A stretch of 64,000 nt of DNA from Thermoproteus sp. Lineage in GTDB: Archaea > Thermoproteota > Thermoprotei > Thermoproteales > Thermoproteaceae. Positions 20,171-43,818 of the stretch are shown in pieces (positions within the stretch are counted from its first letter, which is position 1; each line of letters begins with the position of its first letter). The notes under the pieces were generated by a model. That model did no database searches. It saw only the letters and a list, made by a program, of their open reading frames with translations, and was not told the DNA's origin. The stretch is from assembly GCA_038893495.1 (NCBI GenBank), contig JAWARJ010000001.1, positions 930,001 through 994,000 of the forward strand, read 5' to 3'. The position numbers and the translations under genes were made by a program.

Positions 20171-20533
20171 TTAAGAGAGGGCGGCCATAAACGGCAGGGA
20201 GTAGCCGTTGGCTATTAAGGTCCCCTGCGCCGATTGTATCTGCGTCTTTGGACATATCGCGCGAACCTCCGCGAGGGCTCCGCCGGGGACGTAAACTCCG
20301 CTCGTCATATTGCACGGCATGCCGTTTAGATATACGGCGTTTATGTAGGCCGGATTTGGCCCCGGGTTCACCACGATTATCCTCAACGTCCCGTTTTGGT
20401 AGTACAACATAGCGGCCCTAATAGTGACATAGGTATTGGAGGTAGAGGTAAAAGTCGTATAGGCGTACCAAAACACGGCGAGAGCCACAGCGATCGTGAA
20501 GAATAGTAGCAGGAGGAGCGCTAAGGAGTTCAT
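20171..20533 (-). CDS. Type IV pilin-like / archaellin-like small membrane-anchored protein
   Basis: The 120-residue protein has an N-terminal hydrophobic helix (about residues 3-25). A beta-rich extracellular domain follows with IIVVNPGPNPAYINAVYLNG, a pattern common in archaeal pilin-like proteins. No clear class III cleavage site (basic residue, Gly, hydrophobic) is visible, so it may be a membrane-anchored relative rather than a processed pilin. Its ATG overlaps the PCNA stop as TAATG, so the two are probably co-transcribed. The pairing with a replication clamp is odd and may not be functional. Confidence 0.6.
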   Translation of the reverse strand: MNSLALLLLLFFTIAVALAVFWYAYTTFTSTSNTYVTIRAAMLYYQNGTLRIIVVNPGPNPAYINAVYLNGMPCNMTSGVYVPGGALAEVRAICPKTQIQSAQGTLIANGYSLPFMAALS

Positions 20534-32017: not shown

Positions 32018-32141
32018 ATCGCCGAGGGGCCATATCTATTTAAACAAAGCGCCACAGAAGGGCGCCGGCTGGGCGAGTCTAGGCCCTCTATGTCGCATAA
32101 AGAACAACGCAAAATATATTTGAGAGATTTCTATTTCGTTT

Positions 32142-33548
32142 GTGCAGTCCATCGAACTTGTCGTTGTGGGCTTTATCTTAGCCTTCTTCATAGCCGTTAC
32201 GTTCTATATGGTGGGCGCCATGGGCGCAAGCCAACAGACGAGCCAGGCAGGCCTCAACGTGTTGGCCCAACAGATACTCCAGAAGATAACCAGCTACACC
32301 GCCTACAGCCTATCCAACGAGCTCGGCATAGCCGACCCCAACACGCCCGGCTACGTCAGCGACTACATAATCGACTATCTGGCCATGGCGAGTCCCCAAG
32401 CTACAGGCCTCCCGGCCTGCTACGTGTTTAACACCAACAGCCAACTGGCATCCGCAGTGGGCCAGGTGGTGTACTGGGCCGGCTACGGCTACATCGTGCC
32501 CAACGCGCCCAGCGCCACGTTGAACCTCACCGCGATAGCCAGGAACCTCTTCGGGCAGAGCTACAAACAATACGACGTAGAGGTGCGAATAACGCCACTG
32601 GTCAGACTTGCCGTATGTCCCTATGTAGTCGTTAGTAGTGGAGGCACCACTATTACCTTTAAGAACGCTTGGAATCCGATATGTAACACCTTCTATTCCA
32701 CCAACACCCAACAGGGCGTCTACGTAGTGGCTAAAGGCGCAGGCTCCCAGCCGACGGGACAGATACTCTACACTGTCTATTACTGCACGACGAGCTACTG
32801 CTATCCGCCGTATACAAGCTCTGCGCAGCTCCAGCCGCTCTCCGGCTATTACAGCTACGCTCAGCTACAACTGCCCAGTTATATCAATTTCAGTCAGATA
32901 GCCTCGTTAAACGCCACCCTCGTGATATACGTCCAGAAGGTGACCTACCCCTACAGCGCAACTTTCTACGTCTTCAACGCGACCAGCATATCGTTGATAT
33001 ACGGCGCACCCTTCATCACCTCCCAAGGGGTCACCCTGTATTTGATACACGACGCGGATTACACTACATCGCCGAACTCCAACGTGCCGTGCGACGGCCG
33101 GCTGGATTCTAACGGAGTCGGCACACAGTCCCTAGGGATAAGAACCGTAACTCTATATACCGGACAGGGCCTCTTGAACATAGCCACGAACGTCAATCTG
33201 GACCCAGGCGGCTCGGGCAGTGGCTCGCCCAAGGTACAGCAGTGCTCGCAGTGCTCCGGCTCCTCCTGCACCGCCTGTTGGATTGACCTACCCCCTGGCA
33301 CGATGTTGGCCCTAGCCTACGTTACTGCTAACGCTCAATCCAACAATATACCTCAGGCGGCATTGGTGCCCATACCGTTGTTCCCGTCGCCGCCGCTGGT
33401 GGACGTGGACGTGAAGACGTGGTTAAGGTGGGGCTTCCAACAGCCGCCGCAAGTCTACGCCGCCTCGGCCTGGGGCATATTTAACTCTATCACCACGACC
33501 TATCTAGTCAACGTGACGGTCTACGAGTACCCCGGCCCCTTGAGATGA
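32142..33548 (+). CDS. N-terminally anchored surface protein, first gene of the pilus-like locus
   Basis: The 468-residue protein has one N-terminal helix (QSIELVVVGFILAFFIAVTFYMVG) with Glu near its start, similar to pilin cores. A large beta-rich extracytoplasmic part follows, with many sequons and Tyr/Ser/Thr-rich loops. Near residue 365 lies CSQCSGSSCTACW, two CXXC pairs that could form disulfides outside the cell. A canonical prepilin cleavage site is not obvious. GTG 32142 has a CAAAATATATTT box about 26 nt upstream. Its stop overlaps the next start (ATGA), and the following genes are in the same strand. It may be a minor pilin or an adhesin. Confidence 0.65.
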   Translation: MQSIELVVVGFILAFFIAVTFYMVGAMGASQQTSQAGLNVLAQQILQKITSYTAYSLSNELGIADPNTPGYVSDYIIDYLAMASPQATGLPACYVFNTNSQLASAVGQVVYWAGYGYIVPNAPSATLNLTAIARNLFGQSYKQYDVEVRITPLVRLAVCPYVVVSSGGTTITFKNAWNPICNTFYSTNTQQGVYVVAKGAGSQPTGQILYTVYYCTTSYCYPPYTSSAQLQPLSGYYSYAQLQLPSYINFSQIASLNATLVIYVQKVTYPYSATFYVFNATSISLIYGAPFITSQGVTLYLIHDADYTTSPNSNVPCDGRLDSNGVGTQSLGIRTVTLYTGQGLLNIATNVNLDPGGSGSGSPKVQQCSQCSGSSCTACWIDLPPGTMLALAYVTANAQSNNIPQAALVPIPLFPSPPLVDVDVKTWLRWGFQQPPQVYAASAWGIFNSITTTYLVNVTVYEYPGPLR

Positions 33549-33991
33549 GGTGGGTCTTGGAGCTCTTGCTCTCCGTGATCCTCGTGGCGTTGGCCGTATA
33601 CGCCTTGACGCTACTGCCGAGGAGCCCGGTCTCGACCACCATGGGGAGACAAGACGTAGAGACGGCATATAACACCCTCCTGCAGTTGTCGATGAGCCCG
33701 ACGTTCCTATCGGCGTTGCAGAGCGCCATATGTGCCGGCGACCCCACGACGGTCAAGTCCATCCTCGATACGGCGGTGCCGCAACCGTACGTCTATAATT
33801 TTACTGTATATCTAACGCCTAACTCCCCACCGCCCAAATGTCTCATATGTGCCAAGTGGGGGCAGAAGTTGCTGTCCGTCGCCAGGCCGACCGGCTGGGC
33901 CGGTTCCTCCGCCTCCGCCTCAGCAACAGTCAACGCGGTGCTCCCAGATGGAACACAAGTGGAGCTACAACTAATCGTGGCTAGGCCATGA
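33545..33991 (+). CDS. Small N-anchored surface protein of the pilus-like locus
   Basis: The 148-residue protein has an N-terminal helix (WVLELLLSVILVALAVYAL) and an extracytoplasmic domain with a KCLICAKW CXXC pair and a beta-rich end. No family is recognised. It is translationally coupled on both sides by ATGA overlaps, so it should be made together with the proteins encoded before and after it. It is likely a minor subunit or a partner that caps or folds the large protein that follows. Confidence 0.6.
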   Translation: MRWVLELLLSVILVALAVYALTLLPRSPVSTTMGRQDVETAYNTLLQLSMSPTFLSALQSAICAGDPTTVKSILDTAVPQPYVYNFTVYLTPNSPPPKCLICAKWGQKLLSVARPTGWAGSSASASATVNAVLPDGTQVELQLIVARP

Positions 33992-36900
33992 GGGGACAGT
34001 GGATAGTCCTCACGGCGCTCGCCGTCGTGGTGGCAGTAGCGGTCATATATATGGCATACGTCTCGTCGCTGATAGTGCCCGTGGCGTCGATCCAGAGGCC
34101 GGCCTACGGCATAATGAGCCAAGACTGGCCGGAGCTGGTGCAGGATCTAGCCGGCTACATCTTCTACCTTGCGGAGACTGGCGCCAGCTCTATCGCCACG
34201 GCAGCCCTCAACGCCGGGCTCTACAATAACCTAACGGCCGGCTACCCGCTAGACCGATACCTACAGCTACAAGAGGCGGGCCAACTACTCGGCGCCTCCC
34301 TCTCCGCGTTGGAACAGAACTTATTGCCGACGGGCACCTTCATACAGACGAGCTACCGCGTAAATCAAAGCGGCTTCGGGGGCACGCTGGGGCCCTACCC
34401 CGCCGCCGTGGTGCTCAGCAACAAGTACAACTTCACATACCTCCTCAAGTCAGGCGTGTTAGTCCTCACAAGCGACTACGCCTATAGGTTCTTGGTGGCG
34501 CCCAGCCAACCCATACAGTCGCCCTACGTCGTCATCTACTCGGCCGACGTGAGGCAACCCTCGGCCGTAGGTGAGCCCTACAGCTCGGCCCTTAAGACCA
34601 TAATAGACCTCGCGAGGACCAACAACGGTTACGACGCAAACCTCCTCAAACAGAGACTCTACTTGGTGTTAGTCAACAACACCGCGCTACAGGCCGCCTT
34701 GTCCTACTACGCCAGTAAGGGCTGCAACTACCTCAATTCCACGGTACGACAACAATTCCAAGCCCTGCTGAGCCAAGCCTTCGTGGTCCTGCCTTGGTGG
34801 TCCGAATACACCGGGTGTCCTTTCTGCCTCTTCGACTTCCAAATGCCCAGAGGCTCCCTCAACGTCGGGAACGGAAAGGCCGTCGAGGTGTTGGTGCTGA
34901 TCTATAAGAATCCGACGAACACGCCCCAGCTGGGCCTCAACATCAACACGGCCCTAAGCCTATTCGGCATATCGCCTCCGCCGAACACCAATAACTACTG
35001 CCCGGCCTCCGCCAACAACCCCTACGCCGTATACAACCTAGATGGAGTTGAGTACTTCTTCAACTCCAGCGATCTGGCGCAATGGAGCCGAGGTGTTTCG
35101 TACTCAACACGAGCTTGCCACTTGGCGCCCGGCGTTCAGCAAGCCGGGCCAGCCCCGACCCCTATAAATTATTCGACCCAAGTGTCTGTCTACGGCTCCA
35201 AGTACGGCGGCTTCGTATTAGGCGCCATATATCAAGCGAAGTCATACGATGTTGGCTATCTTGCGTGGAGCAACCCCATATCGATACAGCCCAGCTGGCC
35301 CGGCTATCAAGTTAGGACTCTGGTGAACGTAACGCAGGCGAATTCGTCCGAAATGGGCTTTCTGGCGCTTTACTTCGGCGGATATCAAAACATCAACCCC
35401 AGCAGTCCCACCTTCCCGTTCTGTGCCGATATGGTCGCAGTACAGCCCCACGGCTATCCGCAGACGCTGACCTGGTCCTATCTGCCTCAAGGTTACGGCT
35501 CCGGCCCCTGGCACGAATACAACTGGCAGTACGGCGGCTCCTTCGTGTCGCTTCAAAGGCTGAGATGGTACGTCCTTTCGATCTCCCAACTAACCAGCGG
35601 ATCGACGTATCTGGCTGTATATAAGTTTCTCTCGAACTCCTCGGGAGCCATGGCGCCTTATACGGGGCAGTGGCTATCTATGTCGTACATCAACAATTTC
35701 GCCATTGTGCTCGGCTCCGACACGGAGGATGCGCCCGCCAGCACTACCAACAGTTGGATAGAGGAGGCCGTATATGCCTTCTTGGCCATAAGACCCTGGA
35801 CCTACCCGGAGCCGGCCGTAGCCTTGACGCAACTCTCCGGCGCCCCCGTCTTGAACCCGCCCAGGAGGGTCGTGCTGGCCTACGGCAACTACTCGTCCGT
35901 ATCGGCCAGAGTGTCGGGTATCGGCAACATATCGCTGGCCTTAGTCTTCGGCCTCAATATAACCCAGAGGCTTTCCGTCAACGCCTCGGCCGTGGGGGCC
36001 CGCCTTAAGCCCTACAACGCCACCTACGGCATCTATACGCTCAACGTGACCGTCTCGGCGAATGTGCCCAGGTCGTCGCTGGGGGCCTCCTTCACCGCCA
36101 TCTACAACTACGGAGGGGTACTCTACAACTACACCTGCGGCGTGTCGAACATCTGCAACCAGACTCTGCTGGCCTACTACGGGTGGGACGGCCGTAGCGA
36201 TATATCGCTCTACAACGTCTCGGCGCTCGTGCCCCTGCACTCTACGCCGGCCTTTCTGGCGAACCTCATGGGCATCACCTTCGCCGTGGGCAACCTGACC
36301 GCTGTCCACCCCAACGCCTACTACAACTGGTCCGGCAACTCGTTGCTCCTAGTTAACAACGGCACCATGGACGCCGTGTTCTACTTCCCGTGGTACGGCA
36401 ACTCGCCTACAGTCAGCTCAGTGACGCCCAACGACGGCGTGTTCGGAGCCAGGCTGGACATAACCTCGCCGAGCGGCAACTACACGCTGGTCATGGTCCC
36501 GCCCTACAGCGCCGTCAACGTGACCTTCTACGGCCAGTACGTGGCCCAAATTAAGAACAACTTCCCGAACAAATACGCGCCGGCCTGGGAGCGGAAATAT
36601 ATAAACCCCATGCCATGGCCTCCAGCGACTAACACAGGGACTTGCAAATTCGTCCCTGTGTACTTCCCCTCGCCCTATCCCGGCGACAGGTTCGTCCTCA
36701 TGGTTCCGCCCAGCGTGCTTAGCGCCTTAGGGCTCGGCGCAAAGGACGTGGGTTCCATATTTATATTCAACGGCTCTTGGCAACCCCAGCAACCCCAAAA
36801 CGGACTTCCGTACATAGTGGGAAGTTACGGAGAACTGTGGGTCAACATCACGGCGTCACCTGGCTGGTTCGCTTACAGAGGGACCCTCTTGGCGCTATGT

Positions 36901-37608
36901 AAGAGTAGTAGCAGTAGTGGAACGGGGGCTTCTGGTCCGTCTCAGAGTAAAGGTGGTAAAAGTAGTAGCGGGACGGGGGCCCTTGGTCCGTCTCAAATCT
37001 TTCTGAAATATATAAATTCTACTCTTTTGCAAAACAGCGGAGGCGTCATAAACGTTGGCCTCTCCAATTACCCCTACGGTTTCGCCGTACTGGTCAACAT
37101 AACATCATCCCAAACTCGAGGCATGATACCTACTCTTCCTGATTACGTATGGCTAGGCAACTCGTCGAGTCCATCGTCCGGTCCTAGCAGTTGTCGCTGG
37201 CTGGGGCCTGGAGTAATAATGTATCAATCTGGCACGCAACCACCCTGGTGGAACCAATACGGCGGGGTTTGTTACAACCAGTATGTCTGGCAGAATAACG
37301 GCTCGGGGACCCCTGTTTATTTCATCTTCGGAGTAACAGCGAATTTTGTGAACTTCCACATAGCGACTGTTAACAGCAACGGTGTTAAAAGCAACGGTGT
37401 GTTGAATGACTACACCTTATGGTGGTTTAACGGGTGGCCGAATACTCAGTATAACTCCGCAGTAGTCACTGGGGGGTATAACGGACCTATGCGCAACTTC
37501 CAGTATGTTTACGCCTCTGGCGTAAATAGCTATGGGGTGGACATTTTGCCGTACATGTGGCCTCTGCCATATTTCATAGTCAACGGGAGGCAGTACACGA
37601 CCATATGA
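33988..37608 (+). CDS. 1206-residue N-anchored surface protein, adhesin-like
   Basis: A short MRGQWIVLTALAVVVAVAVIYM helix anchors a very long extracytoplasmic chain with dozens of sequons and almost no charged clusters. A middle region (about residues 390-620) with AIYQAKSYDVGYLAWSNP and RLRWYVLSISQLTSG looks like a lectin-type beta sandwich. At about 972-1004 a Ser/Gly/Thr linker is duplicated in frame, after which the codon style becomes more AT-rich. The C-terminal block (1005-1206) is Asn/Tyr/Trp-rich. It is coupled to the previous gene by ATGA. I infer a giant adhesin or pilus-tip protein; no family is recognised. Confidence 0.65.
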   Translation: MRGQWIVLTALAVVVAVAVIYMAYVSSLIVPVASIQRPAYGIMSQDWPELVQDLAGYIFYLAETGASSIATAALNAGLYNNLTAGYPLDRYLQLQEAGQLLGASLSALEQNLLPTGTFIQTSYRVNQSGFGGTLGPYPAAVVLSNKYNFTYLLKSGVLVLTSDYAYRFLVAPSQPIQSPYVVIYSADVRQPSAVGEPYSSALKTIIDLARTNNGYDANLLKQRLYLVLVNNTALQAALSYYASKGCNYLNSTVRQQFQALLSQAFVVLPWWSEYTGCPFCLFDFQMPRGSLNVGNGKAVEVLVLIYKNPTNTPQLGLNINTALSLFGISPPPNTNNYCPASANNPYAVYNLDGVEYFFNSSDLAQWSRGVSYSTRACHLAPGVQQAGPAPTPINYSTQVSVYGSKYGGFVLGAIYQAKSYDVGYLAWSNPISIQPSWPGYQVRTLVNVTQANSSEMGFLALYFGGYQNINPSSPTFPFCADMVAVQPHGYPQTLTWSYLPQGYGSGPWHEYNWQYGGSFVSLQRLRWYVLSISQLTSGSTYLAVYKFLSNSSGAMAPYTGQWLSMSYINNFAIVLGSDTEDAPASTTNSWIEEAVYAFLAIRPWTYPEPAVALTQLSGAPVLNPPRRVVLAYGNYSSVSARVSGIGNISLALVFGLNITQRLSVNASAVGARLKPYNATYGIYTLNVTVSANVPRSSLGASFTAIYNYGGVLYNYTCGVSNICNQTLLAYYGWDGRSDISLYNVSALVPLHSTPAFLANLMGITFAVGNLTAVHPNAYYNWSGNSLLLVNNGTMDAVFYFPWYGNSPTVSSVTPNDGVFGARLDITSPSGNYTLVMVPPYSAVNVTFYGQYVAQIKNNFPNKYAPAWERKYINPMPWPPATNTGTCKFVPVYFPSPYPGDRFVLMVPPSVLSALGLGAKDVGSIFIFNGSWQPQQPQNGLPYIVGSYGELWVNITASPGWFAYRGTLLALCKSSSSSGTGASGPSQSKGGKSSSGTGALGPSQIFLKYINSTLLQNSGGVINVGLSNYPYGFAVLVNITSSQTRGMIPTLPDYVWLGNSSSPSSGPSSCRWLGPGVIMYQSGTQPPWWNQYGGVCYNQYVWQNNGSGTPVYFIFGVTANFVNFHIATVNSNGVKSNGVLNDYTLWWFNGWPNTQYNSAVVTGGYNGPMRNFQYVYASGVNSYGVDILPYMWPLPYFIVNGRQYTTI
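36913..36995 (+). repeat. In-frame duplicated Ser/Gly/Thr linker
   Basis: Two 32-nt units at 36913-36944 and 36964-36995 share the GGGGGC...GGTCCGTCTCA core, offset by exactly 51 nt (17 codons). They encode SGTGASGPSQ and SGTGALGPSQ. The duplication marks a flexible joint between the main body and the C-terminal block of the 1206-residue protein. Confidence 0.7.
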
Positions 37609-37656
37609 CGCGGGCCCGCCGGCGTCTTGGGCAGGCTTCAACGGCTCGGGACAACG

Positions 37657-37668
37657 TAAAATATATAT
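37657..37668 (+). promoter_or_regulatory. Internal TATA box for the prepilin gene
   Basis: TAAAATATATAT is centred about 25 nt before GTG 37689. It gives the two prepilin-like genes their own promoter, separate from the three-gene unit that starts at 32142. It also fixes the start, excluding an Arg-rich extension from 37557. Confidence 0.65.
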
Positions 37669-37688
37669 CCCGTAGCGGCGGCGCGGCT

Positions 37689-38390
37689 GTGTCCTCTCGA
37701 CGCGCCTTGAGGGGCTTGGAGGCGCTTGAGACCGCTATACTCTTGGCTATTTCTCTCGCCATAATATTCGGCGCGGTGCCCTACATCATCCAGACCATTT
37801 ATCAGATCGAGGCATCCCTAGAGGCCAAGAACTACGCGGCGTTTTTGGTGGCTCTGGCCGATTCCTTGGAGTCCGACTTCGGCATGGCGGGAGTCCAGAG
37901 GATGTATCAACTCCCCAACTCCTACTTCGGCACGTTCTACGTGAGGGCCGTCCCGCTTAAAGTCGTCGTGCAGTGCGGCGCACAGACCTACACCTACTAC
38001 TTCAAGGAGCTCGTGGTCGGCTACAACTCGACGTATGTGGAGTTCGGCAACTCCATGCTCAGAGGTCTCAACGGCTCTCTTGCGGTGCCCATAGGCGAGC
38101 CCGTGGTGGCTCTCAACTCGACCTACCCCCGCTCCTTGAGGCTATACAGCAGGGTTGTTTACGTCAATGGCTCGTCTCTCTACCTCTACACCATATCCGC
38201 CTCCTTCGTGCCGCAGGGCTCCGGCAGGTCGCTCGCCTACACGATAGGCCCCTTGAACTACACGTCGACTCCCTGCAATGGGCTCGTCACGGTGGTCGCG
38301 TCGAGCGGTCTCGGCTCTAAGGCCATAACGGTCTCCGTCAAAAACGGCGTATATCTCGTCTGGAACAACGTGACTTTCTACTGGAAATGA
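37689..38390 (+). CDS. Type IV prepilin-like protein (233 aa)
   Basis: The N-terminus SSRRALRG followed by LEALETAILLAISLAIIF is a class III signal. It has basic residues, Gly at 9 as the last residue before cleavage by a PibD/EppA-type peptidase, then a hydrophobic helix with Glu at +5. The 180-residue remainder is a beta-rich pilin head with several sequons (VYVNGSS, GPLNYTS). With start GTG 37689 the signal is ideal; a longer start at 37557 would spoil it. It overlaps the next prepilin gene by 4 nt. It is probably a pilus subunit assembled by the ATPase and platform at 40-43 kb. Confidence 0.75.
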   Translation: MSSRRALRGLEALETAILLAISLAIIFGAVPYIIQTIYQIEASLEAKNYAAFLVALADSLESDFGMAGVQRMYQLPNSYFGTFYVRAVPLKVVVQCGAQTYTYYFKELVVGYNSTYVEFGNSMLRGLNGSLAVPIGEPVVALNSTYPRSLRLYSRVVYVNGSSLYLYTISASFVPQGSGRSLAYTIGPLNYTSTPCNGLVTVVASSGLGSKAITVSVKNGVYLVWNNVTFYWK

Positions 38391-38965
38391 GGGGTATCAC
38401 CGCAATCGAGGCGGCTCTGCTCTTCGGCTTTCTGGCCGCCGCCTACATAGTCATATCCTATTTGGTGTGGCTCATGTCCTACCAGTCCTTTAGGGACGAG
38501 GCCTCCACGACCGCGTCGCTGATGGTCCAATACGTCGCCTCCCAGGTGGCCGACCTAATGGCCTCGTCCCTCACGCCAGGCGTGAGGACCATCAGCTACA
38601 AGCTCTTCCTCCCGACGCAGTTCCCCAACCTCGACGCCTACTCCTACTCAATAGCTCTCATAAACAACGCCACCAGGCCCGGCGTGGTCTCGTTGTACGT
38701 ATTGGCCAACTTCTCCGCATACCGCGGCTCGTTCTCTGCATATCTCTACAAGATATCGGCCTTCGCCTACAGCCTAAACGCCTCATATGCCGGCGTAAAG
38801 ATATACGCCACTAATTTCGACAAGGCCCTAGGAGGTCCCCAATGTATCGTCCCGTCGCCTCTAGGCGGGACCGCCGTAAACCTCACTATGAGCGGATGCG
38901 GCGCGGTCTGGCTCGCGCCGACCCCTGCAAACTATAAGGTACTCACAGTGGTGAGGACCAAGTGA
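38387..38965 (+). CDS. Second type IV prepilin-like protein (192 aa)
   Basis: MRG followed by ITAIEAALLFGFLAAAYIVI is a minimal class III signal, with cleavage after Gly 3 and Glu at +5. The rest is a pilin head with LYVLANFSAYRG and two Cys (PQCIVPS and MSGCGAVW) that could form one disulfide. Its ATG overlaps the first prepilin stop (ATGA), so the two subunits are coupled and may be made at a fixed ratio. Whether it is major or minor cannot be read from sequence. Confidence 0.75.
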   Translation: MRGITAIEAALLFGFLAAAYIVISYLVWLMSYQSFRDEASTTASLMVQYVASQVADLMASSLTPGVRTISYKLFLPTQFPNLDAYSYSIALINNATRPGVVSLYVLANFSAYRGSFSAYLYKISAFAYSLNASYAGVKIYATNFDKALGGPQCIVPSPLGGTAVNLTMSGCGAVWLAPTPANYKVLTVVRTK

Positions 38966-39054
38966 GCGGCTTCGCCGACAGGGCGGCTCGGTCGGCGAGA
39001 AGGCTCGGCGTGAGGCCAGAGGAGGTGTGAGGGATTAGTTCGCGGCTTTGTGCG

Positions 39055-39669
39055 ATGTGGTTGGTGGATCCCTTGGAGTGGCAATACATAATGACGTTGG
39101 TGCGTTCGTTGTTGCCAGAACTCTCGTTCCATAGGGACGGCGAGGCCGCCCTCGCGGCCTCTAGGCTCGGCGGCCTCCCTATCGGCGTGCTGGCCTCTTT
39201 CAACTGGTCCAGGCCGGTGATATACATGCCTCCCTTCGAGCGGCTGGTTGAGGGCACTGTGGTGGTGGCGGTCGAAGGTTATACAGCCAGGCGGCTTATG
39301 GAGCATGGCGTGAAGCCCGACGTGGTTGTGACCGACTTAGACTACGAGCCGGAGCATGTAAGCCTGGGCTCCATCGCCGTGGTGCACGCCCATGGCGATA
39401 ACATCGACAGACTGCCCCTCGCCCCGCCGAGGCGCATCTTCACGGTCCAAGTCCCGCCTCCCCCGGGCACGTACAACGTGGGGGGCTTCACGGACGGCGA
39501 CAGGGCGGCCTATCTGGCCTACGCCCTCGGCGCCCAGGCGCTTGTAATTAGCGGCTTCCGCCCCGATTTGCCCATAAAGCGCTACGACTCGGTGAAGATA
39601 AGGAAGTTAGCTCTAGCCGAGACGTTGTTGCGCCGCCTCTCTAGGAGACTCGACATTAAGTTCATCTGA
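39055..39669 (+). CDS. mptE: 6-hydroxymethyl-7,8-dihydropterin pyrophosphokinase, MptE-like (DUF115)
   Basis: The 204-residue protein carries the DUF115 signature KPDVVVTDLDYEPEH, followed by VVHAHGDNIDRL and NVGGFTDGDRAAYLA, and ends with ALVISGFRPD. MptE enzymes pyrophosphorylate hydroxymethyl dihydropterin in archaeal folate and methanopterin synthesis. It is read between the prepilin genes and the pilus platform but is probably unrelated to them. The 3' end overlaps the convergent gene at 39613 by 57 nt. Confidence 0.8.
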   Translation: MWLVDPLEWQYIMTLVRSLLPELSFHRDGEAALAASRLGGLPIGVLASFNWSRPVIYMPPFERLVEGTVVVAVEGYTARRLMEHGVKPDVVVTDLDYEPEHVSLGSIAVVHAHGDNIDRLPLAPPRRIFTVQVPPPPGTYNVGGFTDGDRAAYLAYALGAQALVISGFRPDLPIKRYDSVKIRKLALAETLLRRLSRRLDIKFI

Positions 39670-39939
39670 AAATTCCACCAACATCTCCAGCGACCTCTCC
39701 AACTGTCTCAGCCTCTCAGCGTGGTCTTCGAACTGGACGTACGCCTCCAGCGGCACCTTCATGTCCATCATGTCCTCGCCTGCTATATAGACGCATAGGG
39801 AGCCTCTACACACCGTCAGTGTGTATATAGTCCTATAGGGATACAGCTCTGTATAGAACCAAAGAAATCCGCCTATAGAGCGGAGGGCCTCAACAGCCCT
39901 CGGGTCTCTGCCCAATCTCAATATCTTCTCCCTATCCAT
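39613..39939 (-). CDS. Hypothetical protein (108 aa)
   Basis: The 108-residue protein has a basic N-terminus (MDREKILRLGRDPRAVEAL), a central beta stretch with one Cys pair separated by five residues (VCRGSLCVYIAGEDMM), and a helical acidic C-terminus. I do not recognise it. A TTAATATAT box is about 22 nt before ATG 39939. The 57-nt convergent overlap with mptE covers its C-terminal 18 residues. It sits between the two halves of the pilus locus, transcribed against them. Confidence 0.6.
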   Translation of the reverse strand: MDREKILRLGRDPRAVEALRSIGGFLWFYTELYPYRTIYTLTVCRGSLCVYIAGEDMMDMKVPLEAYVQFEDHAERLRQLERSLEMLVEFSDELNVESPREAAQQRLG

Positions 39940-40023
39940 GTCCCACCTGTTTTACATATATTAATACTTCGAGCCGCCGTCAGCATAACGCAAGCAATAT
40001 ATAGCCGGGCTTAGTCCTAACGA

Positions 40024-41598
40024 GTGAACATTTACGACTTCTTCATGAGGGGTATCGAGAGGACTGACCTAGACCCGTTGAGCTTCCGCCAGACCGTAAG
40101 GCTGGCGCTGTTGGGGGGAGCCGCCATGGTCGCCTTGGGGGCCTTCTTCACGTTGATGCGCGCATTCCCTCTGGGGCCCTTGTTCTTAGGTCTCGGCGTC
40201 TTTCTGATATTCGTCCCCAAAGTTATAATAAACGTACGCGCCACGTCGATAAGGGAGTTGCTCAATATGGAGATACCCTTCTTGACGGTCTTGGTGCAGA
40301 TGACATTCGCCACTAAGGCTCCGTTGGATCTAGCCATACAGCGCATGATGAGGTATAAAGAGCTGCCCGGCATAAGGACTCTCGCGACTACCGCTTGGAA
40401 CAACACGAGGATGCTGGGGATGGAGCCGATGGACGCCCTCAAGCGCGCCGTGGAGAAGCTGGCCCCGCAGAAGTTGATATACCGCTTTAATTCCCTCTAT
40501 ACGGCGTTGAGGGTGGGCGAGGACATAATCGCGAAGCTCTCGCTCTATATGGACATGGATATGGTGGAATTCTCGACGGGAATGCAGAGGCGTATGGACT
40601 CGTTGGTGTCCGCGATATCGGCCACCATAGTGGGTCTGGCCATGCTGTCGGTCACGGCGATAGTTATAGGCAGAGGCAACGCCGCTATTTTCGTGCTCAT
40701 GGGAGGTCTGCTCCCCGCCGTTATGGGTGCCGTTATGGGCATGATAATAAATGTGCCCCTACTCAAGATGGACTTCAGGATCTGGCCTCTGATATTCGCC
40801 ATAATTTCAGGCGTCGTTCTGATAGTCTTGGGCTTCTTCCTGAACTTCGGTATATACACGCCTCTGGCGGCCGCCGCGGTGTCCGCTCTGGGGTACTTCG
40901 CGACTAGGGAGAAGATAAACGCGCGTTCCTTCGAGAGGGGCTTCATGGATTTCTCCTACGTCGTCCTGGACGAGTTGAAGAGGTCGCCGTCGATAGTTAG
41001 GGCCATGGAGAACGCCGTCATGTACGGCAATTTCGGCGACTTTACGCCTAGGGCCGCCTCTACGCTCAACGCGATTAAGTCCGGCATAACCGAACTGGAG
41101 GAGGTCGTCGTGAGGGGGATGCAGCCCATCATGGCGATAGTGGCCAGGATATTTTTCGACATACATAGACTGGGCACGCTTCCCCGCTCCACAGTGGACC
41201 AGCTACAGAACTTCGTGGCGAAGCTCTTCGACTATAGGGAGCAGTTGAGCAAGGCGTTGGGCATAGTGAGGCTCCTCGCAGTGCTCGGCGCGGCCATGGT
41301 CGCCTTCGTCAACACGTCGATGATAATAATGAGCCAGGCCATGGCCGGCATTTCGGGCGGGGGACCTGCCCCCATGGCGGGCCTCGGGGGAGGGGGCATA
41401 GAGATGAACTTCCTCTATCTGGCCTTCGGCATGTTGGCCATAGGCTACTACTTCCTCTTCGCGAAGGTCAGCTTCTCCACGAGAGGAGGGCTTATATACC
41501 TTTCCGTGTTCTATCTGGCCATGTTCTTTGTGATTATAGCGACTACAAATATCTTTAAGCCGACAAGCGGCAATCCCTCCTCCTTAGGGATACCATGA
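40024..41598 (+). CDS. Pilus assembly platform membrane protein, TadC/GspF-like
   Basis: The 524-residue protein has two related halves. Each has a cytosolic helical T2SF-type segment (around RATSIRELLNMEIPFLTVL, and later SFERGFMDFSYVVLDELKR) followed by membrane helices, with about eight or nine helices in all. A Gly-rich loop (GISGGGPAPMAGLGGGG) sits before the last two. Such proteins form the inner-membrane platform on which the pilus ATPase turns. GTG 40024 has a CAATATATAG box about 25 nt upstream. It overlaps the ATPase gene by 4 nt, an arrangement seen in many archaeal pili and the archaellum. Confidence 0.85.
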   Translation: MNIYDFFMRGIERTDLDPLSFRQTVRLALLGGAAMVALGAFFTLMRAFPLGPLFLGLGVFLIFVPKVIINVRATSIRELLNMEIPFLTVLVQMTFATKAPLDLAIQRMMRYKELPGIRTLATTAWNNTRMLGMEPMDALKRAVEKLAPQKLIYRFNSLYTALRVGEDIIAKLSLYMDMDMVEFSTGMQRRMDSLVSAISATIVGLAMLSVTAIVIGRGNAAIFVLMGGLLPAVMGAVMGMIINVPLLKMDFRIWPLIFAIISGVVLIVLGFFLNFGIYTPLAAAAVSALGYFATREKINARSFERGFMDFSYVVLDELKRSPSIVRAMENAVMYGNFGDFTPRAASTLNAIKSGITELEEVVVRGMQPIMAIVARIFFDIHRLGTLPRSTVDQLQNFVAKLFDYREQLSKALGIVRLLAVLGAAMVAFVNTSMIIMSQAMAGISGGGPAPMAGLGGGGIEMNFLYLAFGMLAIGYYFLFAKVSFSTRGGLIYLSVFYLAMFFVIIATTNIFKPTSGNPSSLGIP

Positions 41599-43082
41599 GC
41601 GCCCCCCGCACTCTAGGCTTCAGAATGGAGCAATGCCCCGGCATACCCGTGGAGGACTACGGAGTGGAGGGCGCGAGGATAACCATACATAAATACGAAG
41701 ACGGCTTCTGCTACTCCGTAAACTTCGCCTTTCCGTATTCCGACAAGGTGGGAGAATACGTCTATAAGATCATCGAGTACCTCACGGCGAGACAGGTCGT
41801 TAGGCCCAATATGACCAGGGAGGAGCTCGGGAAGCTCATCGAGATGGCTATGGCCGACGTGGGGGTCCCCAGACCGCTGAGGGCGCCTGTGCGTTTTTAC
41901 GTCCAGCTGGAGGCCGCCGACTATTCGTACCTCACCCCCCTGCTGTACGACATGAGGCTGGAGAACGTCAACATAAACGGGACGGACAGCCCCATCTATG
42001 TAGACCATAGGGACTACGGCTACAACATAAGGACCAACGTGATCCCGACGGATAAGGAGGTCCTCCTCAGAATAGTGAGCAGAGTTTACGCCGAGACGGG
42101 CAGACCCCTCAACGAGCAGTACCCAATACAGGACACGTTTTTGAGGTTGCCCAACGGGGCTCTGTTGAGATTCGCGACGGCGATGTCCGGAAAGACCTCT
42201 CGCAATCCGCCGTACGTCTCGGTCCGTATACAGCCGCCGGAGCCCATATCTCCCACCAAGCTCATTAAGAACAAGACCATCTCGGCGTTGGGGCTGGCCT
42301 ATTTGTGGTACCTCTTCGAGAACCTCAAGTCCATTATGATCATAGGAGGCACGGGCTCCGGCAAGACGACGCTCCTAAACGCCCTGCTGGTGTTACTGCC
42401 CCACAAGCGCATAGCGGTGGCCGAGGAGACCCCTGAGATACGCCTCCCCAAGAGCTTCACCAACTCGGTCCTCCTCTTCACCTCGCCGCTCTACGACTAC
42501 CAGAAGAACCTCCCGGGCTCCGAATCTGCGATATACCTCATAGACCTAGTCCGCTATTTGCTACGCGCGAGGCCCGATATAGTGGTGATAGGCGAGAGCC
42601 GCGGCCGCGAGATACACGAATTGATACAGGGCATTCTGACGGGCCACGGCGGCGCCACCACCTTCCACGCGGAGGACATGGTGGAGGCCTTCATGAGGAT
42701 GACAGGAGAGGCCATGGGGGTCTCGCCGGAACACATATCTGCCTTCAGCGTCGTCGCGGTAGTCAAAAAGTTCGATTGGGGCAGGCGCGTCACCTCGCTG
42801 ACTGAGGTGGTCTGGCTGAGGGCCTACCCCTATCCCGCCCTCAATAGGATAAAGATAAAGGAGGAGGAATTCGGCCTCGTGGAGGTCGGCATCTACGACC
42901 GCAATAAAGACCTCTTCACGGTGGATCTGAAGAGGTCCTTCTGGTTGCAGAGACTCGGCGGCTACGAGGAGGTCATGACGCGCGCCGAGTTGCTACAGGC
43001 GCTGGCCGATAAGGGCGTCCTTGACGCGGAGGCTGTAGCCGAGGCCGTAAGGCAGTACTATAGGCTCAAGAAGAAGGCGTGA
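41595..43082 (+). CDS. Type II/IV secretion ATPase (GspE/TadA/VirB11 family)
   Basis: The 495-residue ATPase powers pilus assembly. It has an N-terminal domain, then NLKSIMIIGGTGSGKTTLL (Walker A), the Asp-box-like VAEETPEIRLP, the Walker B region ARPDIVVIGESRGREIHEL, and the His-box TGHGGATTFHAE. Length is typical of archaeal pilus ATPases. It lies directly after the platform gene (ATGA) and before the small gene at 43079 (GTGA). No retraction ATPase is visible in this window. It probably forms a hexamer docked under the platform protein. Confidence 0.92.
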   Translation: MSAPRTLGFRMEQCPGIPVEDYGVEGARITIHKYEDGFCYSVNFAFPYSDKVGEYVYKIIEYLTARQVVRPNMTREELGKLIEMAMADVGVPRPLRAPVRFYVQLEAADYSYLTPLLYDMRLENVNINGTDSPIYVDHRDYGYNIRTNVIPTDKEVLLRIVSRVYAETGRPLNEQYPIQDTFLRLPNGALLRFATAMSGKTSRNPPYVSVRIQPPEPISPTKLIKNKTISALGLAYLWYLFENLKSIMIIGGTGSGKTTLLNALLVLLPHKRIAVAEETPEIRLPKSFTNSVLLFTSPLYDYQKNLPGSESAIYLIDLVRYLLRARPDIVVIGESRGREIHELIQGILTGHGGATTFHAEDMVEAFMRMTGEAMGVSPEHISAFSVVAVVKKFDWGRRVTSLTEVVWLRAYPYPALNRIKIKEEEFGLVEVGIYDRNKDLFTVDLKRSFWLQRLGGYEEVMTRAELLQALADKGVLDAEAVAEAVRQYYRLKKKA

Positions 43083-43297
43083 TACTCCACGGAAGCCCTG
43101 AGGAGGTCATTAAGGCATTGAAGGAGGAGGCAGAGAGGTTGATTTCCCTCAAAGGCCACGATCCCTATCTCGATAAATTTATTGATTCCAAACTACGTAT
43201 ATTGAAAGAATGTATTGAAAAAACTAAGAAAATTATATATTATAATAATAATATCCAAATTATTGCTGTTAATAATTGTTATATAATTGAGATATGA
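43079..43297 (+). CDS. Small AT-rich gene of the pilus locus (72 aa)
   Basis: GTG 43079 overlaps the ATPase stop (GTGA). The first 45 codons read as a helical charged protein (SPEEVIKALKEEAERLI). The second half is very AT-rich (about 43180-43293) and encodes KKIIYYNNN and NNCYIIEI, a composition unlike anything nearby. The gene is coupled to both neighbours by overlaps, so it seems to be kept, but its end may be a recent extension or really the promoter of 43294. No family is recognised. Confidence 0.5.
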   Translation: MILHGSPEEVIKALKEEAERLISLKGHDPYLDKFIDSKLRILKECIEKTKKIIYYNNNIQIIAVNNCYIIEI

Positions 43298-43818
43298 GCT
43301 CGACGGACTTATTTCTAGCCTTACTAATAGCCCTAATTACAGCCGTGGGCGGCCGGCTGATTAGAGACATAGAGGCGTTGGCGATATTCGTCGGCCTTTC
43401 GGCTACCGCCGCGTTCTTGTTGGCGTTCCTATTGAGCGCGCCAGGCGCCGTGTTAGGCCTCGTGGGGCTTTCTGTCGCCGCTATTAAGATCGTAAGATCT
43501 CCTCAAGTCAGGAAGTTAGGGACAAGAATTAGGACATATAGGTCTAGAGAGAGGCTTAAGGAGCTTGAGGAGGCCACCGTCTCTCTATCTCGTGTTCATA
43601 TAGTGGACGTAGTCCCCGCGGGGTCGAGGAGAGCCATACACCCTAAGGTCGTAGAGCTGTTGGAGCTGGCCGATAGGGCCGCTTCGTTGGGGTACCACGT
43701 CGAGGAGCCGCCGTGGTTGAAGGACGCAAGGCTCTATAGGAGACTGCTCGGCTCCGAGTTCGTGGCGGCTGAGACGACCGTGGTGGGCGATACCGAGGTG
43801 ATACCGTTGACTCAATAG
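43294..43818 (+). CDS. Membrane protein of unknown function, end of the pilus locus
   Basis: The 174-residue protein has two or three N-terminal membrane helices (about residues 5-22, 28-48 and 50-68). A cytosolic charged domain follows with RTYRSRERLKELEEA and VHIVDVVPAG. Nothing in it identifies a family. It is coupled to the small gene by ATGA and is the last gene of the unit, converging with the HAD gene with a 7-nt overlap. Position suggests an accessory factor of the platform/ATPase. Confidence 0.6.
   Translation: MSSTDLFLALLIALITAVGGRLIRDIEALAIFVGLSATAAFLLAFLLSAPGAVLGLVGLSVAAIKIVRSPQVRKLGTRIRTYRSRERLKELEEATVSLSRVHIVDVVPAGSRRAIHPKVVELLELADRAASLGYHVEEPPWLKDARLYRRLLGSEFVAAETTVVGDTEVIPLTQ

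Follow-up and report, generated by a model that had tools for sequence, protein, structure and literature searches.

A five-gene surface operon of Thermoproteaceae as a candidate tip complex of a PilA pilus

The window analyzed here is a stretch of 64,000 nucleotides (930001-994000) of a Thermoproteus sp. genome of 1,995,394 bases. All the open reading frames of the original prediction were recovered. A first group of genes, on the forward strand, encodes the surface proteins A (32142..33548, 468 aa), B (33545..33991, 148 aa) and C (33988..37608, 1206 aa), followed by the minor pilins D (37689..38390) and E (38387..38965, 192 aa, N-terminus MRG/ITAIE, the slash marking the predicted cleavage site). 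A second group on the same strand encodes a TadC/UpsF-like platform protein (40024..41598, 524 aa), preceded by its own TATA-like element near 39997, a VirB11/TadA-like assembly ATPase (41595..43082, 495 aa), a small protein conserved 3' of the ATPase (43079..43297, 72 aa) and a membrane protein conserved 3' of the small gene (43294..43818, 174 aa). Six junctions are exact overlaps of 4 nt (A/B, B/C, D/E, TadC/ATPase, ATPase/small and small/membrane). The C/D junction is the exception: the genes of relatives overlap by ATGA, whereas the window shows an insertion of ~100 nt with a promoter-like motif. Judging from the sequence, the most likely start of D is GTG 37689, with the predicted leader MSSRRALRG/LEALE; a start at 37557 was rejected, as promoter spacing and relatives favour GTG 37689. 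Since the gene order is kept in relatives, the arrangement is far beyond chance.

Between the two groups lie an MptE-like pterin enzyme gene (39055..39669, forward strand, PF01973), found 3' of E in Thermoproteus genomes and not judged part of the pilus system, and an opposing ORF of 108 aa with no assigned function (39613..39939, reverse strand), conserved beside mptE in Thermoproteus. The original prediction saw here one complete locus interrupted by mptE. Neither part of this description stood. There are two transcription units, A-B-C-D-E (32142-38965) and TadC-ATPase-small-TM (40024-43818), and these operons are ~80-105 kb apart in complete Pyrobaculum genomes (for example at positions 17.8 kb and 98 kb in G011). 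Also, a major pilin of the 6W8U type and a prepilin peptidase are both absent from the locus. The PilA of this genome (G000) is encoded outside it, at 1491671, and a prepilin peptidase is present as a Peptidase_A24-like gene at 849523 (E=3.8e-4, below the curated cut-off).

The order A-B-C-D-E, mptE, TadC-ATPase-small-TM is shared by the window's genome, G001 and G002, the ORF opposing mptE not being listed in G001. In two other Thermoproteus genomes (G004, G005), the surface operon is inverted and ~10 kb from the motor operon. Adjacency of the operons is thus limited to some Thermoproteus genomes, and both operons are found throughout the Thermoproteaceae. The genomes compared include those that we take to be T. 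tenax, T. uzoniensis, P. calidifontis, P. islandicum, P. neutrophilum, P. aerophilum, V. distributa and C. maquilingensis, as well as P. oguniense, WP30, CP80 and UBA157. The expected co-occurrence of surface genes with the ATPase and platform held within the family: besides the window's genome, the platform protein was found in 18 of 18 Thermoproteaceae genomes, and D in all of these except the fragmented G003 (210 contigs) and the incomplete G008 (80%), hence in 16. It held only partly outside, in Vulcanisaeta and Caldivirga, where weaker matches to A and D occur in a similar operon of five or six genes with the order A-C-B-D-E and neither an ATPase nor a TadC gene was found beside it. A contig labelled as a Candidatus Calditenuaceae MAG (L098) bears an A-E operon of the P. 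aerophilum type and is most likely mis-binned.

The ATPase matched PF00437 above the cut-off (E=5e-27). The platform protein matched the NCBIfam UpsF model over most of its length, below the equivalog cut-off (E=5e-10), and platform and ATPase weakly resemble BasF/BasE of the bindosome, UpsF and the archaellum ATPase, all below cut-off. At the sequence level, three parts of the prediction are supported: the type IV pilus nature of the motor, the likeness of D and E to prepilins, and the membership of A, B and C in the same appendage. The surface proteins had been described as not recognised. This was true for Pfam and NCBIfam, where none of A-E had a match above cut-off, and a PDB search with the sequence of D was likewise negative; the system, however, fits subclade 4E of the archaeal type IV pili.

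In passages of Makarova et al. (2016; PMC4858521), subclade 4E of the Thermoproteales has the most conserved ATPase, encoded with TadC, a membrane protein and a cytoplasmic protein; secreted components are called minor pilins or adhesins, PilA-type major pilins are stand-alone, and ATPase-free surface loci occur in Vulcanisaeta and Caldivirga. In the light of these passages, all of these features are common to both systems, and ours matches subclade 4E (characterised by its ATPase phylogeny and the component arCOG05475); the gene content and the exclusion of the other ATPase loci make this the probable assignment. Having been catalogued in 2016, the locus as such is known. Four of the results seem to be new, namely the promoter motif, the exchange of A-E, the leaderless D and A, and a C subunit without Glu5; they are absent from the passages of that paper on subclade 4E. 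The pilus-type cluster TTX_0887-0898 of the T. tenax genome (PMC3189178) is probably this locus, given its position relative to the prepilin peptidase. The Ups and Aap pili and the bindosome of Sulfolobales have in common with our system an ATPase and a platform of the TadC family (UpsF, BasF and BasE matches below cut-off). However, published descriptions give the Ups and Aap pili a simpler make-up with a small number of pilins, and profile searches revealed no A-E equivalents.

Inspected by eye, the remaining ATPase loci of this genome resemble other types. The locus at 1424k contains two small TadC genes and PilA-type pilins, that at 866k several small pilins and MinD-type neighbours, and that at 770k has a KaiC-like gene beside it. 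At 1972k (L128:8314-10763), a divergent secretion ATPase accompanies a possible RPB8 and a zinc-ribbon protein, which we take to be a TFIIB homologue, an arrangement that has been described for subclade 4D.

Two further genes bear on the relation between the operons. In G007, a PilA gene close to A-E encodes a match to the chain of the P. arsenaticum pilus 6W8U (E=3e-17). PilA homologues are found near A-E in several Pyrobaculum genomes and directly before TadC in G006 and G008; their leader, 3-7 residues long, is followed by MTSLE or LTSIE. The second gene encodes a Sec-secreted protein of ~860-960 aa (~830-960 aa across the family) with a signal peptide, a membrane helix at its C-terminus and weak matches to beta-propellers, all below cut-off. 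In several Pyrobaculum this gene separates PilA from A, and in G008 it is located ~1 kb 3' of the motor. PilA and this ~900-aa protein each adjoin A-E or the motor in different genomes, so that both bridge the two operons. The secreted family is possibly a PilY1-like partner. Its members (L065:4428-7187, L198 and homologues) start with ...TESLD and carry the PilA promoter motif.

One may ask if the adjacency seen in the window is incidental, A-E being driven by another of the genome's motors while other pilins depend on the TadC/ATPase operon. The distance of ~80-105 kb in Pyrobaculum, the motorless A-E operons of Vulcanisaeta and Caldivirga, and the other secretion ATPases of the genome, which could in principle serve A-E, would agree with this. 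We nevertheless hold it to be quite improbable, as most of the other ATPase loci come with a platform or pilin of their own or lie in a non-pilus context, and the two bridging genes link both operons in different genomes.

The surface operon and PilA have a promoter motif in common. The motif AACGCAAAATATAT lies at 32106..32119 (forward strand), 22 nt before the start of A, and a second copy at 37653..37666 (forward strand) is inside the insertion between C and D. The pattern MACRYAAAATWTAT gave 13 matches in 5 Thermoproteus genomes and 0 with the reversed control. Eleven of these 13 sites are 22-24 nt before a start: that of A (5/5 genomes), PilA (2), D (the window's genome), C (the genome taken as T. 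tenax) and the ~900-aa gene (2). For Pyrobaculum, the pattern ACCAYAAAATATWWW gave 18 matches in 11 genomes (controls 2), at six PilA, six A and one C gene, four genes of a winged-helix-like protein and one other locus with a MinD-like gene; at 13 of the 18, the start of A, PilA, C, D or the ~900-aa gene follows after 21-24 nt. Because the patterns were derived from the A and PilA promoters, matches there are partly by construction, and the independent sites are those at C, D, the ~900-aa gene and the winged-helix gene. A one-mismatch pattern gave extra matches at about control level in the own genome, and only exact matches were therefore used. The promoters of TadC are similar to the motif, not exact matches. 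To judge from these sequences, a nearly unique motif appears to tie the A-E operon to PilA and the ~900-aa protein, a link that appears new. The motif may represent a regulator-binding site or a particular form of BRE/TATA element. Co-expression of the surface genes with the motor had been expected; the common motif suggests that A-E and the major pilin are expressed together, and gives weaker support for A-E and the motor. In four Pyrobaculum (L177, L182, L185, L186, near position 1501), the motif is found 21-23 nt before the start of the winged-helix-like protein of 87 aa, a candidate autoregulated regulator of pilus genes.

The N-termini of the subunits provide the next set of observations. 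In type IV pilins, a leader that ends in Gly or Ala precedes a hydrophobic helix, in which Glu5 is usual, and this leader is stated to be invariable (PMC10191384). The class III signal, with a [KR]G site, a hydrophobic helix and Glu5, was found in D and E of Thermoproteus (MRG/LEALE, MRG/ISAIE) and in PilA (MKG/LTSIE). Glu5 is present in A and D and in most E, several E homologues having Gln or no acid at +5. B reads M-[RK]-W-x-x-E, with Glu one residue late (E6). The leader of C is variable in length and ends in [RK]G/Q in nearly all homologues; C lacks Glu5 in all homologues read and is the sole subunit always to do so.

A leader is not found on every subunit: Pyrobaculum D, Thermoproteus A and a PilA-like pilin (PilA2) begin at +1, and the other subunits carry one. 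In nine or more genomes, Pyrobaculum D reads M-[TQ]-S-L-E, with the start Met at mature +1 and Glu5 in register. Mature PilA of 6W8U begins with MTSLE, the same five residues as leaderless D. In most Thermoproteus, A reads [GTG]-Q-S-I-E; in the window it reads M-Q-S-I-E5-L and appears to lack a leader, whereas A of G011, G013 and G018 has the leader MRG/LES[IV]E. PilA2 (MNSLALLLLLFF...FWYAYTTF) is encoded in the window at 20171..20533 on the reverse strand, with an in-frame stop two codons upstream of its ATG. Its gene is directly downstream of a PCNA-like gene.

D in at least nine Pyrobaculum and A in Thermoproteus thus look leaderless. Such an appearance could result from start-site choice or from non-standard start codons further upstream, and a passage of PMC7347861 reports that Pyrobaculum PilA genes were misannotated in this way, Met8 being chosen as start. 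For D, possible GTG starts two codons earlier make G007 and G016 ambiguous. However, in-frame stops lie 2-3 codons upstream of D in G009, G011, G013 and G018, no [KR]G precedes the Met in the other unambiguous genomes, and the motif 22 nt before the GTG of Thermoproteus A has the same spacing as for PilA. An artefact is thus a rather unlikely explanation. In archaea, the initiator Met is not formylated. We lean towards the reading that some Thermoproteaceae pilins are leaderless, that their unformylated Met would be mature +1 and that they would enter the tip without peptidase processing, in a cassette exchanged as a block. A literature search of incomplete coverage returned no report of leaderless pilins; if true, they would constitute a natural exception to the invariable leader and its dedicated peptidase.

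The bodies of the large subunits gave little indication of fold. The model of A (pLDDT 78.7) shows a long N-terminal helix and a beta-rich body with a conserved CxxC pair; a fold search with it returned weak hits to beta-sandwich proteins (TEAD domains, TM below 0.36) and nothing significant. B is a short N-anchored protein with a conserved CxxC. C ranges from 405 to 1206 aa among relatives, and AlphaFold2 (1195 aa, 7 sequences) gave no usable fold for it (mean pLDDT 40.5), only residues ~660-870 reaching moderate confidence. Allowing for missing sequences, A, B and C keep or lose their CxxC together: all three carry it in long-form genomes and none does in the short-form genomes checked. The motifs may have a metal or disulfide role.

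According to a review (PMC10191384), the tip complex is built of minor pilins, and its cap is a subunit without Glu5. From conservation, N-terminal registers, the promoter motif and the replacement described below, all read from sequence, we infer a tip position, an assembly order, an adhesive role and the absence of processing for some subunits. By analogy, A-E would probably be the initiating tip complex of a PilA pilus, with C as cap or adhesin, TadC and the ATPase extending it, D or A leaderless, and a cassette swapped between species. The five pilin-like subunits would insert N-in/C-out and form the tip, and the shaft would be PilA of the 6W8U family. The leader of C is probably cut at [RK]G/Q. 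Without Glu5, C could only be the first and outermost subunit, so it would cap the tip and display the domain that is largest and varies most. The priming subunits A, B, D and E, most of which have Glu5 or Asp5, would assemble beneath C through contacts from Glu5 to N-terminal amines. The ATPase and TadC, with the small and membrane proteins, would then add PilA and extend the pilus. D of Pyrobaculum and A of Thermoproteus would have lost the leader, the initiator Met would serve as mature +1 and prepilin peptidase would not be needed. The common promoter motif would join the scattered operons. Several observations count against this model: the E6 of B, the E homologues with Gln or no acid at +5, the uninformative folds of C and A, the unlinked surface and motor genes of Pyrobaculum and the inexact TadC promoter. 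The solved filament is that of the related PilA of P. arsenaticum (PDB 6W8U, PMC7347861), whose homologues (MTSLEIAIIVAIV...) flank A-E in Pyrobaculum with the same promoter motif; the published structure contains PilA only, tip proteins are not described in passages of that paper, and the filament considered here is predicted from its genes.

The proposed complex would work like the bacterial PilHIJK/GspHIJK with PilC/PilY1 (PMC10191384), with which it would share a minor pilin set, one large subunit without Glu5 and a separate large non-pilin secreted protein. It differs from them in being archaeal, in its TadC-type platform and in the very large C. No homology of A-E to H, I, J or K subunits was found, no Pfam or NCBIfam match reaching the cut-off, and the proposed likeness is one of function, not of membership. 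The composition of archaeal pilus tips being poorly known, the cassette provides five candidates and a co-regulated secreted protein.

The large extracellular bodies of A and C, and the weak BasF/BasE resemblance that stands alongside those to UpsF and the archaellum ATPase, all below cut-off, could also indicate a bindosome-like structure or pseudopilus. A-C would then be surface-anchored binding or secreted proteins with class III-type N-termini, assembled by TadC and the ATPase but not located at the tip of a long filament. We regard this as unlikely: a solute-binding domain was absent in all libraries searched, the operon is associated with the PilA of a solved filament, and the Glu5 pattern shows a single subunit without Glu5.

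The history of the cassette is consistent with a tip complex that acts as a unit. In G010 and G011, which we take to be P. islandicum and P. neutrophilum, the motors are 96% identical and A+B+D+E 30% identical. The motor tree joins G010 and G011 at 100/100; the surface tree conflicts with it, placing G010 with G007, G012 and G016 at 100/100 (with a long-branch warning). The DNA of the pair is 94% identical through the ~900-aa gene and the promoter to 16 nt inside A (codon 5), is unalignable across A-E, and is 90% identical again from the stop codon of E onwards in G011 and from 20 nt past it in G010; at the DNA level, swap edges are seen in this one pair. A-E appears to have been swapped as a unit between species, with motor and promoter kept, and this appears to be a new observation. 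Together, the swap as a block and the joint keeping or loss of CxxC support A-E as one functional unit. Replacement of the tip block between sister species with conserved motor and promoter fits selection on what the tip touches, be it surfaces, partner cells or viruses, and suggests that the contact surface is under strong selection, which may concern cell recognition or virus attachment.
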